The translations under genes and the position numbers were made by a program. A DNA stretch of 10,967 bases, taken from Acidobacteriota bacterium (lineage in GTDB: Bacteria; Acidobacteriota; Terriglobia; Terriglobales; Acidobacteriaceae). Position 1 is the stretch's first letter, and every line of letters starts with the position of its first letter. The notes under the pieces are model-generated. The model saw nothing but the letters and a program-made list of their open reading frames with translations, was not told the DNA's origin and made no database searches. Shown one piece after another: positions 1,525 through 5,300 of this stretch. Location: assembly GCA_003225615.1 (NCBI GenBank), contig QIAS01000360.1, positions 1,529 through 12,495 on the forward strand, in the 5' to 3' direction.

Positions 1525-1547
1525 TTTTCGATTACAGCAATCGAAAA
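1525..1547. promoter_or_regulatory. Perfect 9-bp inverted repeat, candidate operator
   Basis: TTTTCGATT, a five-base spacer (ACAGC), then AATCGAAAA: both arms match perfectly. The stem is AT-rich with only two G-C pairs and has no following T-run on the plus strand, so a terminator is unlikely. It lies about 30 bases upstream of the candidate -10 box of the lysC leader, where an activator or repressor could bind. Its symmetry means it could equally serve gltB. The binding factor is unknown. Confidence 0.4.
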
Positions 1548-1577: not shown

Positions 1578-1583
1578 TATAGT
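1578..1583 (+). promoter_or_regulatory. Candidate -10 box for the leader-lysC-hom transcript
   Basis: TATAGT matches the sigma-70 -10 consensus at five of six bases. It would start RNA near 1590, about 30 bases before the leader ATG at 1621. No good -35 lies at 16-18 bases; the nearest TTGA-type element (TTGAAT, 1549-1554) is 24 bases away. The promoter may need an activator or may lie elsewhere. Confidence 0.35.
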
Positions 1584-1620
1584 ACCTATGCTTATGTTCC
1601 GAATTAGCCAGAAGATGTCG

Positions 1621-1683
1621 ATGGTGATGCGGCCCACAACAACGGGCACAAGCATCACAGGTGCTTCTGGCACAGGGGCATAG
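1621..1683 (+). CDS. Threonine-rich attenuator leader peptide (thrL-like)
   Basis: A 20-codon reading frame encodes MVMRPTTTGTSITGASGTGA and ends in TAG. Six of 20 residues are Thr (6, 7, 8, 10, 13 and 18) and one is Ile (12), just upstream of an intrinsic terminator and the aspartate kinase gene. Length and composition closely resemble the E. coli thrL leader peptide (21 residues, Thr- and Ile-rich, ending in a Gly/Ala tail), whose role is to sense charged tRNA-Thr by ribosome stalling. I chose ATG at 1621 because AGAAG (1610-1614) lies six bases before it. In-frame ATGs at 1588, 1594, 1615 and 1627 are alternatives and leave the Thr-rich end unchanged. Five of the six Thr codons are ACA. 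The frame is open back to 1468, so translation initiation needs experimental proof. Confidence 0.8.
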   Translation: MVMRPTTTGTSITGASGTGA

Positions 1684-1729
1684 TTGAGCTAGAAAGAATT
1701 CAGACTCAAACGAACCCACTGCCAGAAGC
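1663..1729 (+). promoter_or_regulatory. Antiterminator helix of the threonine attenuator
   Basis: GCTTCTGGCA (1663-1672) is a perfect ten-base complement of TGCCAGAAGC (1720-1729). Past a 2x2 internal loop, GGG (1675-1677) can pair with CCC (1715-1717). The 3' arm covers most of the 5' strand and the loop of the terminator, so the two helices cannot coexist. The 5' arm falls in leader codons 15-19, before the TAG. A ribosome stalled on the first Thr codons (1636-1650) would leave it exposed; one at the stop codon would cover it. A small competing hairpin (AAGCA 1650-1654 with TGCTT 1662-1666) could hold the 5' arm in the absence of stalling. Pairing was worked out by eye, without energy calculations. 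Confidence 0.75.
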
Positions 1730-1752
1730 TGGCAAGTGGGTTTTCGCTTTTT
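1713..1752 (+). terminator. Intrinsic terminator (attenuator) upstream of lysC
   Basis: AACCCACT and GCCAG (1713-1725) pair with CTGGC and AGTGGGTT (1729-1742), giving a 13-bp stem with a single bulged A and an AAG loop. A T-rich run follows (TTTT, then CGC, then TTTTT to 1752). It stands 37 bases before the lysC start and after the leader stop codon, so it can only act as a conditional terminator of the lysC-hom transcript. No plus-strand gene upstream needs an ordinary terminator here. Confidence 0.85.
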
Positions 1753-1789
1753 ATGGAACGTTTCAGCGAAGGCAAGGGATGGCATAGCC

Positions 1790-3382
1790 ATGATAATCAT
1801 GAAATTTGGCGGCACTTCGGTTGAAAATGCGGCCGCGATCGAGCAAGTGGCTGAAATTGTGCGCAGCCGACAAAAAGACAGTCCTATAGTCGTGGTCAGC
1901 GCATTTGCGAAAGTCACCGACCAGCTGGTGCTCATGGGCCAGCAGGCTGCTTCGGGTGATTGCGAGTCGTGCCTGCAATTATTGCAAGCGATTCGCGCGC
2001 GCCACTTGGAGACTGCGGAAGCCCTCGTTGAGACGGGATTCTCCAAGATTTCAAAGCGGGTCGAAAGTATCACAGCCGATTTGGAACATTTTGTGCGCGG
2101 CGTGGCGGCGGTGCGTGAACTGTCACCGCGCAGCAGCGATTGCCTGCTGTCGTTTGGAGAACTACTTTCGAGCGAAATTGTGGCTGCGGCGCTCGCGGTT
2201 CGCGGTCTGGATTCGGTATGGGTGGATGCCAGGGAATGTATTGTTACCGACGCGATGCATACGCGCGCGCGGCCATTATTCGAAGCGACCAAGGAACATC
2301 TGCAGGCAAAGCTAGGTCCGGTTCTGGTCAAGAGCCGCATTCCCGTGATGGGCGGCTTTATAGCTGCTACACAAGAGGGCATTCCGACCACGCTGGGTCG
2401 GGGTGGGTCCGATTTTTCAGCCGCCATTGTCGGTGCTGCACTGACTGCGGAGCGCATTGAGATTTGGACTGATGTGGAAGGCATGATGACGACCGACCCA
2501 AGGCTATGTGCCGAAGCGCGAACCATCCGGCAAATCAGTTTCAATGAGGCAGCCGAACTCGCATACTTCGGGGCGAAGGTCCTGCATCCCGCTACGTTGT
2601 TGCCAGCGATCGAGCAGAATATTCCAGTGTATGTTTTAAATTCTCGGAATTTGAAGAGCAAGGGCACGCGCATTACCGCGCATGCGCCGCGCAGCCGCGA
2701 CATTTTTCGGGCGATTACGGCGAAAACCGGCGTCAGCATGGTGAACGTTGTGGCTTCGCGAGGTTTGATGGTGCACAACTTTTTGCGTTCGGTGTTTGAA
2801 GCGCTCGACCGGCACGGCTGTCCGGTCGACCTGGTGGCAATCTCTGAAGTGAGCTTGTCGTTCACTATGGAGTCGAAGCGGCTTCCGGAAACTTTGCTGG
2901 CAGAGCTTGAAGAAATTGCGGACGTCACGTGTGAAGATCAGCAGGCGATCGTTTGTCTGGTGGGCGAAGACATTCACGGGAAACCAGGAATCGCAGCGAA
3001 CGTGTTCACTACCGTGGCCAAGGCGGGCGTGAATGTGCGGATGATTTCGCAGGGCGCGTCCGAGATCAACATCAGTTTCGTCATCAAGGAGGGCGATGTG
3101 CCACAGGCCGTGCGCCACTTGCATAGGCATTTCTTTCCGAGTCACTCGGCGCAAGTGGGCCGTACCGCTGCTGCCGGGGAGGTGCGCCGTGCTCGCAGCG
3201 CGACTCGCGACAGGAATGCGAACGGCTCACGTTCAAAGTCGGAGAAGATTGGAAGGAATAGATCGGGTTCGGCTTCGGGTGGAGCAAGGGTCAGTCGCGC
3301 ACCTGGAGAGCACCCACGGCCTCGGCAGGTGTCAGCAGCTCCTCTACTCAATGTCAAGCTTGCGTCGGGGTCGCGGGGGTGA
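1790..3382 (+). CDS. lysC: Aspartate kinase with paired ACT domains and an unusual C-terminal tail
   Basis: Aspartokinase phosphorylates L-aspartate to 4-phospho-aspartate, the first step towards Lys, Thr, Met and Ile, in the cytoplasm. The kinase domain (about 1-300) shows KFGGTSV at 5-11, SFGELLSSE at 121-129, TLGRGGSDFSAA at 201-212, IWTDVEGMMTTDPR at 225-238 and FGAKVLHPATLLP at 260-272, all close to E. coli LysC. Two ACT domains follow (about 315-380 and 385-449), the usual site of feedback inhibition. The threonine leader and the hom neighbour suggest Thr as effector, but sequence alone cannot decide. Start: ATG at 1790 with AAGGGA (1774-1779) ten bases upstream; the frame runs further up, but only through the attenuator. 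The enzyme should end near residue 449 (HLHRHFF). Residues 450-530 are an extra Arg/Ser/Gly/Ala-rich, probably disordered tail that I cannot match to a domain. The stop overlaps hom by one base. Confidence 0.93.
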   Translation: MIIMKFGGTSVENAAAIEQVAEIVRSRQKDSPIVVVSAFAKVTDQLVLMGQQAASGDCESCLQLLQAIRARHLETAEALVETGFSKISKRVESITADLEHFVRGVAAVRELSPRSSDCLLSFGELLSSEIVAAALAVRGLDSVWVDARECIVTDAMHTRARPLFEATKEHLQAKLGPVLVKSRIPVMGGFIAATQEGIPTTLGRGGSDFSAAIVGAALTAERIEIWTDVEGMMTTDPRLCAEARTIRQISFNEAAELAYFGAKVLHPATLLPAIEQNIPVYVLNSRNLKSKGTRITAHAPRSRDIFRAITAKTGVSMVNVVASRGLMVHNFLRSVFEALDRHGCPVDLVAISEVSLSFTMESKRLPETLLAELEEIADVTCEDQQAIVCLVGEDIHGKPGIAANVFTTVAKAGVNVRMISQGASEINISFVIKEGDVPQAVRHLHRHFFPSHSAQVGRTAAAGEVRRARSATRDRNANGSRSKSEKIGRNRSGSASGGARVSRAPGEHPRPRQVSAAPLLNVKLASGSRG

Positions 3383-4749
3383 TGGCCATGGGTGCTTCGA
3401 AATCGAATTCGTTGAAAGCCCCACGGAACGACAGTTCCGGCGACGTGGCTGTGGTTTCCGGTCCAAAGCGTCACGCTGTCGTCCCGAGCCCTGAACAAAA
3501 AATCTGCAACGTGGCTCTTCTGGGCTTCGGCACGGTGGGCAGCTCAGTGGCGCGGATTCTCGCCGAACGCGCGCCTGGCCGCCTGCGCCTTTCGCATGTT
3601 TGCAATCGCAATGTTTCTCGCAAACGGGTGGATTGGCTGCCGCCAGATGTGAAATGGACGGAGGACATGAATGAAGTTCTGTCCTCTGATGTGGATATCG
3701 TCGTCGAAGTGATCGGAGGCCTCGAGCCCGCGAAAGATTGGATTTGCAGAACACTCAGTGCCGGCAAGTCCGTGGTCACGGCAAACAAGCAATTGATCGC
3801 GCACCACGGTCCAGAGTTGATAGAGCTCGCGCGGCGGATGAAGCGGCACATCGCGTTTGGAGCATCTGTTGCGGGTGGCGTGCCGGTGATTTCCGGATTG
3901 CGTGAGGGTCTGGCGGGGGACGAACTCTTCAAGATCTACGGCATTCTTAACGGCACTTGTAACTACATTCTTAGCCGTATTGAGAGTTCCCGGATCTCGT
4001 TTTCCGACGCGCTCGCGGAGGCGCAGAAACTTGGGTTTGCTGAGGCCGATCCTACTGAAGATGTGGATGGGCTGGATGCGCGCGCCAAATTGGCGATCCT
4101 GGCGCGCATCGGGCTGCACAGTGACGTGCAGCCGGACAGCATTGTTTGCCGCTCGATCTCGTCGATCGAAGCTGTGGACTTTGAATATGGCAATCAGGTG
4201 GGGTTTACGATTCGCCAGATTTCCTGGGCTGAACTGAAAGATAATCGTCTGTTTGCTTCGGTACAGCCTGCGCTGGTTGGGCTGTCTTCGCCTCTGGCCC
4301 GTGTTGAAGGCGGTCAGAATCTGGTGATGGCGACCGGCAAATTCGGCGGCGAGACCGTGTTTGCTGGTCATGGCGCCGGCGGCCATCCGACTGCGGTCGC
4401 GGTTGTGTCCGACATCATCTCCATTGCCGGGCATGAGGGCGGAATGAATGGCTTCGCGGATATGCCGCAGATCACGCCTACGGTTACCGCGGACTTCACC
4501 ACGCGCCATTACCTGCGGTTCAAGGTGATGGATCGTCCCGGCATCATTGCGGCTCTAGCGACAATTTTTTCTGAGTGCGGCATCAACATTGATTCGTTGC
4601 TGCAAAAGCCGGGATACTTGAAGTCAAGCCTGCCGTTTGTGATCACGCTTGAGGCGTGTCAAACCTCGCTTATTGAAAAGGCACTGCAGCAGATCTCGCG
4701 GCTGGATTTCCTGGTCCAGCCCACCGTCCACCTGCCGATCCTGGACTGA
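3382..4749 (+). CDS. hom: Homoserine dehydrogenase with C-terminal ACT domain
   Basis: Reduces aspartate 4-semialdehyde to homoserine with NAD(P)H, the branch point to Thr, Ile and Met. In the 455-residue product, the Rossmann motif GFGTVG is at 48-53, TANKQLIAHHG at 133-143, FGASVAGGVPVI at 159-170, GILNGTCNYIL at 187-197, and the family signature FAEADPTEDVDGLDARAKL at 219-237, with Lys236 in the active site. An ACT domain occupies about 377-450 (MDRPGIIAALATIF). The core begins only near residue 42, so the N-terminus carries about 40 extra residues of low complexity. ATG at 3382 shares its A with the lysC stop (TGATG), implying translational coupling. ATG at 3388 is a real alternative, since GGGGG at 3375-3379 is better spaced for it. 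Probably one transcript with lysC under the threonine attenuator. Confidence 0.95.
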   Translation: MAMGASKSNSLKAPRNDSSGDVAVVSGPKRHAVVPSPEQKICNVALLGFGTVGSSVARILAERAPGRLRLSHVCNRNVSRKRVDWLPPDVKWTEDMNEVLSSDVDIVVEVIGGLEPAKDWICRTLSAGKSVVTANKQLIAHHGPELIELARRMKRHIAFGASVAGGVPVISGLREGLAGDELFKIYGILNGTCNYILSRIESSRISFSDALAEAQKLGFAEADPTEDVDGLDARAKLAILARIGLHSDVQPDSIVCRSISSIEAVDFEYGNQVGFTIRQISWAELKDNRLFASVQPALVGLSSPLARVEGGQNLVMATGKFGGETVFAGHGAGGHPTAVAVVSDIISIAGHEGGMNGFADMPQITPTVTADFTTRHYLRFKVMDRPGIIAALATIFSECGINIDSLLQKPGYLKSSLPFVITLEACQTSLIEKALQQISRLDFLVQPTVHLPILD

Positions 4750-4910: not shown

Positions 4911-5300
4911 ATGGCCAAGACGAAGCAGTTCACAATTGCGGTCGAGCATCGACCGGGTGCAGTGGCCGAAATCGCTAGAACACTCGGGAATGCCAAAGTA
5001 AATATTCTTGCTCTGCTCGGCACGGCGCAAGGCACGGGCGGGGCGGTTCACGTTGTGGTAGAGGATGCGCGGCGGGCAAGGAAGGCGTTGGACGAAGCCG
5101 AAATTTCCTATCAGGAAAATACCGCGGAAGAGATCGAATTGGCCAACAAACCGGGCGCGCTGGCGCAAACTCTGGATAAGCTGGCCGCCAAGGGCGTAAA
5201 CCTGAACTCGATTTACGCGACTGCTTCCAAAGGTGGGAAAAAGGCAATCATCGTTTACACCTCAGAGGCAAAGTCGGCCACCGCGGCCACTGCGGCGTAG
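4911..5300 (+). CDS. Small tandem ACT-domain protein
   Basis: A 129-residue protein made almost wholly of two ACT domains: residues about 6-68 (FTIAVEHRPGAVAEIARTLG, then VNILALLG) and about 74-120 (ELANKPGALAQTLDKLAAKG, then VNLNSIYA). Each repeat keeps the xxxPGALAxxxxxLAxxxVN pattern that forms the amino-acid binding interface. It has no catalytic domain, signal peptide or membrane segment, and ends in a short Ala/Thr tail. ACT domains commonly bind amino acids allosterically, so a sensor or partner of the adjacent aspartate kinase and homoserine dehydrogenase is plausible, but only context supports that. Start is fixed by AGGAGG seven bases upstream. Not assigned a gene symbol. Confidence 0.88.
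   Translation: MAKTKQFTIAVEHRPGAVAEIARTLGNAKVNILALLGTAQGTGGAVHVVVEDARRARKALDEAEISYQENTAEEIELANKPGALAQTLDKLAAKGVNLNSIYATASKGGKKAIIVYTSEAKSATAATAA

Follow-up and report, generated by a model that had tools for sequence, protein, structure and literature searches.

In E. coli, the thrL leader has a short frame with many Thr and Ile codons and, after it, a terminator in front of aspartokinase/homoserine dehydrogenase genes, and the position of the ribosome sets the fold of the RNA. The locus described here raises the question whether the region upstream of the aspartate kinase gene lysC and the homoserine dehydrogenase gene hom in a bacterium of the Acidobacteriaceae is such an attenuator, as an earlier note on this DNA had proposed. 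The window, i.e., the whole analyzed stretch of 10,967 nucleotides, is located on contig C539 of a 4.0 Mb genome that is 83% complete.

Organization of the lysC-hom Locus

The two downstream genes named in the earlier note were both recovered above the cut-off: lysC at 1790..3382 (plus strand; NF006570, 9.3e-151) and hom at 3379..4749 (plus strand; NF004976, 2.3e-124), with the start of the hom frame overlapping the end of lysC (3379 vs 3382). Both are putative regulated genes. The leader is located between them and a divergent glutamate-synthase-like gene on the minus strand, which was named by eye.

At positions 3140–3380, beyond the ACT domains, the frame of the aspartate kinase runs on for some 80 residues rich in Arg and Ser, and most relatives align to the protein only up to about residue 450–490. 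Downstream of hom, at 4911–5300, a 129-aa protein with ACT-like parts was found (NCBIfam matches all below cut-off), which is possibly a small amino-acid-binding regulator.

The Threonine-Rich Leader Frame

The frame read from the ATG at 1588 is MLMFRISQKMSMVMRPTTTGTSITGASGTGA and ends with a TAG stop codon at 1681–1683, which results in a length of about 29–31 codons depending on the start. The sensor codons are located at 1636..1674 on the plus strand, with Thr at positions 1636, 1639, 1642, 1648, 1657 and 1672 and Ile at position 1654. The previously noted six Thr codons and one Ile codon within 13 codons, followed by a stop, could be confirmed. At least six Thr codons among 13 stop-terminated codons were found in 0 of 2000 dinucleotide shuffles of positions 1391–1790 in any plus-strand frame, and the window contains only one other such run on its two strands, in a 43-codon open stretch of the minus strand. 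Neither the leader peptide of the window nor five other leader peptides were recognized by NCBIfam.

Terminator and Alternative Helices

A terminator with a T-rich tail upstream of lysC-hom had been reported with a 13-bp stem. The terminator is present at 1712–1743, and its stem consists of 14 pairs with one bulged A (−21.3 kcal/mol; equal stability in 0 of 1000 shuffles). The 3′ arm ends with TTTT, followed by CGCTTTTT, and the T tail reaches position 1752. Four segments on the plus strand can be distinguished. Segment 1 (GCCAGAAG; 1607..1614), an inverted repeat, is complementary to the same bases of segment 2 (GCTTCTGGCACAGGG; 1663..1677) that the antiterminator uses, and segment 2 codes for the end of the leader peptide. 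Segment 3 (1712..1729) comprises the 5′ arm and the loop of the terminator and is the alternative pairing partner of segment 2, and segment 4 (1729..1752) comprises the 3′ arm and the T tail. A small hairpin (TTGAG...CTCAA; 1684..1709, plus strand) lies between the leader stop and the terminator.

The antiterminator, or 2:3 helix, pairs 1663–1677 with 1715–1729 at −25.3 kcal/mol, which was reached in 0 of 1000 shuffles. A possible 1:2 helix (1607–1614 with 1664–1671) appears in the full-length fold; judged on the window by itself it has no significance, being reached in 223 of 1000 shuffles. Folding of the entire leader gave a z-score of −5.29. The antiterminator and the possible 1:2 helix, neither of which the earlier note mentions, would make the leader an attenuator and not a plain terminator. 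The features expected of an attenuator were found as follows: a run of codons for the end product of the pathway in a short frame (codons confirmed and conserved, frame predicted), an intrinsic terminator between this frame and the first gene and, in silico, a mutually exclusive antiterminator controlled by the ribosome.

Folding of the Growing Transcript

For folds of the growing transcript, the front edge of the ribosome was assumed to lie 12 nt beyond the A-site. With the edge at 1648–1663, an antiterminator of 12–13 pairs was the best fold for RNA 3′ ends from 1729 to 1737, and 12–13 antiterminator pairs were obtained at every edge position up to and including 1663. This number decreased to nine pairs at edge 1666 and to six at most at edge 1669, and at edge 1693, where the ribosome occupies the stop codon, the terminator formed and no antiterminator pair was left. 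Since the antiterminator pairs drop when the edge moves beyond 1663, the first four Thr codons (1636–1650) would be the useful sensors. In an untranslated transcript ending at 1731, the 2:3 helix was favored over the 1:2 helix. The terminator was the best fold of the completed leader in all modelled ribosome states, so that, according to the model, antitermination must be kinetic, the choice between the helices being made during transcription.

The leader very probably senses charged tRNA-Thr and controls the transcription of lysC-hom. Under threonine shortage, the first ribosome would stall on the Thr codons at 1636–1650, leaving segment 2 free to pair with segment 3 once this is transcribed. 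The antiterminator of 12–13 pairs would persist while RNA polymerase crosses the terminator, and lysC-hom would be transcribed. When threonine is ample, the ribosome would reach the stop codon and mask segment 2, whereupon segments 3 and 4 would pair and transcription would stop near 1745–1753. In this scheme, the stalling of the ribosome, the choice of helix by kinetics and the direction of the response to threonine are inferred, as is the leaderless start of the mRNA.

Conservation Among LysC Orthologues

A search for LysC in 200 genomes of the same family yielded nine further close orthologues with 71–76% identity over the first 450 residues. A Thr/Ile frame and a terminator with a similar core were found upstream of 9/9 of these closest LysC orthologues. 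The earlier note had named homologous upstream regions lacking a Thr-rich frame or terminator as evidence against its proposal; both elements are present in all nine, and the conserved frame and terminator support a thrL-type threonine attenuator upstream of lysC-hom. In L011, frame and terminator are placed further upstream than in the other orthologues. The leader peptides of orthologues end with PTRTTGTRITVWRGR, MRPITTGTRIIVFWPGRS and PRTISGTRISVWRGRR, and some leaders contain few Thr codons, L121 being the poorest with two, followed by L124 with three. Among the LysC loci of lower identity (L012–L031), 18 of 20 were without such a leader as judged by eye, and L015 and L024 have one. No leader was found by eye at the second aspartokinase gene of the genome of the window (L002).

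Eleven leaders were aligned, namely those of the window, eight close orthologues and the divergent loci L015 and L024, with L011 omitted. The compensatory terminator changes that the note had called for were observed insofar as the arms change together (two-sided changes in 4 of the 15 predicted hairpin pairs), the overall RNAalifold covariation term of only 0.03 on the 11 leaders giving no net support. The antiterminator was 82.4% paired on the 11 leaders vs 29–46% when slid, and three of its pairs had changed on both sides. Shuffling its letters gave a mean of 80.0% paired; 15 of 500 shuffles reached the observed fraction, and 10 of 500 the covariation score. In the small hairpin, each of the five consensus pairs was retained in 9–11 of the 11 aligned sequences.

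Related Leaders in the Family

A covariance model of the 3′ part of the leader (E ≤ 1e-3) matched in 141 of 398 genomes of the family, distributed over 44 of 79 genera. The matches listed, 150 loci from 115 genomes out of a longer set, were examined. Their downstream genes were classified as thr (61), sulfur (72), ilv (6), his (2) and other (9), the classes being assigned by hand with the leaders already seen, based on protein clusters, Pfam matches of representatives and inspection by eye (L134, L149, L177, L181, L190, L205, L232, L254, L261 and L263 were classed singly by eye). The thr class contains lysC, hom, thrB and thrC. The sulfur class, with mostly Cys-rich leaders, includes genes for sulfite reductase, cysK-like and PAPS_reduct/cysD-like proteins, a solute-binding protein, rhodanese, the type 2A encapsulin SrpI-like, PF03601 and others.

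Sensor codons were counted as the maximum per 16 codons in all frames. Among the matches listed, thr genes were preceded by a mean maximum of 4.97 Thr and 1.48 Cys codons, and sulfur genes by one of 2.00 Thr and 6.17 Cys codons. The relation between sensor codon and operon product was reached in 0 (Thr), 0 (Cys), 2 (His) and 11 (Ile/Val/Leu) of 20000 permutations, in which relatedness was ignored. Ile/Val/Leu codons are a weak discriminator, with 9.33 before ilv and 7.60 before sulfur genes. In all four classes (thr, sulfur, his and ilv), the sensor codon thus corresponds to what the operon makes.

The second match in the genome of the window (L113; C397:2426-2528, minus strand) is a polycysteine leader (CCFCCCC) with the sequence MSASRQTYTCCFCCCCRARVSSGTGRLLT upstream of sulfite reductase, and a promoter-like sequence, TTGACA-17-TACTAT, ends 9 nt upstream of its ATG. 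The relative G032 likewise carries one thr and one cys leader. Six and five consecutive His codons were found in L261 and L263, upstream of hisI and hisG, with a terminator core unlike that of the thr and cys leaders; in L261, the different terminator arm GCCCGCTGACGCGATGA is matched by a different antiterminator, ACATCGCGTGGCGGCGGGG. In the genome of the window, trpE (L275) and ilvD (L276) had no obvious leader as judged by eye, and a search of this 83%-complete assembly did not recover hisG.

Cys-rich leaders also precede a type 2A encapsulin gene (SrpI-like, PF19307; L177) and a rhodanese gene with a similar encapsulin-like frame further down, as seen by eye (L146). Their position suggests that encapsulin loci such as these may be under cysteine-responsive control. 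Two further Cys-rich leaders (L192 and L252) are located upstream of related outer membrane proteins (L192 of the OMPP1/FadL type according to Pfam), whose tie to sulfur metabolism is not obvious.

In a phylum-wide draw (E ≤ 1e-4), the model matched in 7 of 396 genomes, six within the family and one outside. In this last genome, which belongs to another family, L272 (1459–1554) contains a leader frame in which Trp codons stand side by side, followed by a terminator and part of a trpE-like frame (TIGR00564 at 3.6e-18, under the cut-off). It is probably a tryptophan attenuator.

Putative Promoters and Translation Starts of the Leaders

A −10-like box, TATAGT, was identified at 1578..1583 on the plus strand, 10 nt upstream of the ATG at 1594, and TATAxT is nearly invariant in the 11-sequence alignment. 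The leader frame can be read from 1588 as described earlier, but ATG 1594 is more likely the true start, because it aligns with the orthologue starts and follows TATAGT by 10 nt. The frame predicted from there (1594..1683, plus strand) is MFRISQKMSMVMRPTTTGTSITGASGTGA and probably lies on a leaderless or nearly leaderless mRNA; ATG 1588 is possible too. No −35 element was seen near TATAGT, the box being supported by conservation alone, and a sigma-70 scan of 1200–2200 found no promoter.

Among the matches listed, 37 of 57 Thr leaders had a −10-like box 4–13 nt upstream of an in-frame start, against a control mean of 23.0 (maximum 32). For the sulfur leaders the count was 60 of 68, against a control mean of 27.0 (maximum 36). 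Four thr and four sulfur loci had been dropped for having no sensor frame. The spacing between box and start was 9–10 nt in 38 of these 60 sulfur and 14 of these 37 Thr leaders. Shine-Dalgarno-like 4-mers were scarce (2 of 37 Thr and 1 of 60 sulfur leaders). The box position and the few Shine-Dalgarno-like 4-mers suggest that the leader mRNAs are leaderless.

Upstream of the leader promoter, a perfect inverted repeat, TTTTCGATT-N5-AATCGAAAA, was found at 1525..1547. It is the sole site in its genome at up to two mismatches, and degenerate copies were seen by eye at the same place in most of the 11 aligned leaders. It is probably a binding site for a transcription factor or other regulator.

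Loci Selected Without the Covariance Model

The upstream regions of the 30 best sulfite reductases from a protein search of 80 genomes were scored. At least four Cys codons within 14 codons, with a stop before a terminator, were found at 23 of the 30 loci and at 0 of 30 on the reverse complement, and asking for nine other amino acids gave 0–2 of 30 each. L280 and L287, additional to the 23, have the Cys run and a terminator that was clipped by the cut of the region. The terminator is quite different, of a GCCCGC type, at several distant sulfite reductase loci, and the device is therefore not bound to one core.

Furthermore, 40 loci were selected by homoserine dehydrogenase similarity, leaving out the five best, which were already known. 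At least five Thr codons within 14 codons and a terminator were found at 9 of these 40 loci (L355 was judged false) and at 0 of 40 on the control strand, and the covariance model matched before 14 of the 40, among the matches listed. At four of these loci (L339, L354, L356 and L376), the region was short or its start lay too near the leader. Comparing 9 of 40 hom loci with 23 of 30 sulfite reductase loci, threonine attenuation is patchy and covers part of the family, whereas cysteine attenuation covers more of it.

Coordinated Change of the Helices

In a swap test with a strict hairpin definition, the duplex energy of each cognate pair was compared with the mean of the swapped duplexes. Among the matches listed, the cognate 2:3 helix was better than the swapped mean in 101 of 150 cases when terminators were swapped and in 115 of 150 when leaders were swapped, with a mean of −1.94 kcal/mol (p = 1e-10 and 2e-12, relatedness ignored). 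Taken singly, the 2:3 duplex was reached in at most 10 of 200 shuffles for 48 of the 61 thr leaders and for 45 of the 72 sulfur leaders listed; for 13 of the 61 Thr-class leaders it was equalled in more than 10 of 200 (L123: 96 of 200).

The cognate 1:2 helix was better than the swapped ones in 107 of 137 of the matches listed (p = 7e-13), with 13 of the 150 loci left out, and stood out singly in 36 of the 55 thr leaders and in 23 of the 68 sulfur leaders among these matches. A looser delimitation of the terminator, which merges neighbouring stems, gave weaker results for the 2:3 helix, with 10 of 61 thr leaders reaching p ≤ 1/100 and the cognate helix ahead in 92 of 150 cases.

Alternative Explanations

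The leader of the window is very probably a classical four-segment, ribosome-mediated threonine attenuator of lysC-hom and, jointly with this, one of a set of attenuators in Acidobacteriaceae-like bacteria. What the sequence itself shows is the run of codons, the two helices, which are conserved and change in a coordinated way, and the context of the genes. It is improbable that the terminator is unregulated and merely insulates or lowers lysC-hom behind a Thr-rich frame that arose by chance. Such a terminator would agree with the full-length folds, which always favor it, and with the RNAalifold term of 0.03, but the frame, the spacing from stop to terminator and the antiterminator are conserved and change together on average, and the sensor codons match the operon product in the thr, sulfur, his and ilv classes alike. 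The divergent orientation of the upstream neighbour also speaks against it. The terminator was rejected as the end of that gene as well, since the gene is on the minus strand.

Slightly less probable still is a leader that acts through an arrest peptide stalling the ribosome or through coupling to lysC translation. A common peptide ending like GTRI..WRGR in several close orthologues is in line with an arrest peptide, and mycobacterial cysteine leaders were described without obvious terminators (PMC1262725). However, the window peptide has no such ending and the residue type tracks the pathway; the conserved codons coincide with antiterminator bases, so that RNA pairing can explain their conservation. 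Coupling is disfavored by the 106 nt and the terminator between the leader stop and the lysC start. Hardly any weight was given to a riboswitch or T-box that senses a ligand or tRNA directly: the structure is strong (z −5.29), but leader frame, antiterminator and terminator account for it, and no Rfam family reached its gathering score in the window. An identity as T-box or riboswitch was rejected as there was no Rfam match.

Possible Origin of the Attenuator Core

The putative common attenuator core consists of CCAGAAG, CTTCTGGC, CCCACCGCCAGAAG and CTGGCGGTGGG for segments 1 to 4. Among the matches listed, both core motifs were found in 33 of 61 thr, 38 of 72 sulfur, 2 of 6 ilv and 0 of 2 his leaders, and distant relatives have other terminators, with the GCCCGC type before some sulfite reductase and his genes. 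In Acidobacteriaceae-like bacteria, one ancestral core may have been copied before unrelated operons, with only the sensor codons (Thr, Cys, Ile/Val) exchanged, a scenario to which we give somewhat less than an even chance; the alternative is convergence on a sequence preferred in the lineage. The thr and cys cores were no more alike within genomes (0.667, n = 21) than between genomes (0.672), and there is therefore no sign of recent copying. A search of the genome with the exact thr terminator pattern returned the window copy only, two required spacer bases having excluded the cys copy. Core copying, if true, would make these leaders a modular regulon, leaderless and ribosome-sensing, that serves the metabolism of amino acids and sulfur and includes loci with an encapsulin gene.

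Comparison With Known Attenuators

As in the gamma-proteobacterial thrL, a Thr/Ile frame is followed by a terminator and then by aspartokinase/homoserine dehydrogenase genes. Unlike in E. coli, lysC and hom are separate genes, the −10-like box about 10 nt upstream of the leader ATG suggests a leaderless start, and the RNA core resembles the attenuators of other operons in the same bacteria. The Rfam thr leader family (RF00506) did not score above its gathering threshold. No other family did so in the window, and positions 1500–1800 gave two unrelated sub-threshold matches at E ≤ 10. Relative to the Rfam thr leader, the sequence is therefore very divergent at the least; the earlier note had supposed an independent or very divergent attenuator.

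A literature search, mostly outside subscription journals, gave no threonine attenuator in Acidobacteria recognizable by title or start of abstract. The work of Lopatovskaya et al. (2010), which PMC4833913 cites, is said to be a comparative study of attenuation and may list Acidobacteria. Canestrari et al. (2020), a reference in PMC13236596, reportedly described polycysteine leaderless short ORFs of mycobacteria. The leaders found here resemble these in that a short frame, apparently leaderless, carries its sensor codons in runs and precedes biosynthetic genes, and the Cys-type relatives would sense the same amino acid. The cys leaders of Mycobacterium are without conserved terminator hairpins according to PMC1262725. 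In contrast, a hairpin and T tail were found in 150 of the 150 matches listed here, for which the model itself selects, and a terminator and Cys run at 23 of the 30 sulfite reductase loci picked without the model. According to the same article, no conserved RNA structures occur upstream of threonine operons in Actinobacteria, and the actinobacterial trp attenuators have a leader peptide, an antiterminator and a terminator with complementary triples (PMC1262725), an arrangement shared by the leaders described here. Acidobacteria are mentioned for leader-gene spacing (PMC4833913).

Besides the threonine attenuator, the set comprises cysteine, histidine and branched-chain attenuators and, in one case from another family of the phylum, probably a tryptophan attenuator. 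It provides a testable view of how amino-acid control works in soil bacteria and is a natural experiment on the change of specificity in leader-peptide sensors. In its architecture and logic, the leader of the window follows classical leader-peptide attenuation, which is already known.
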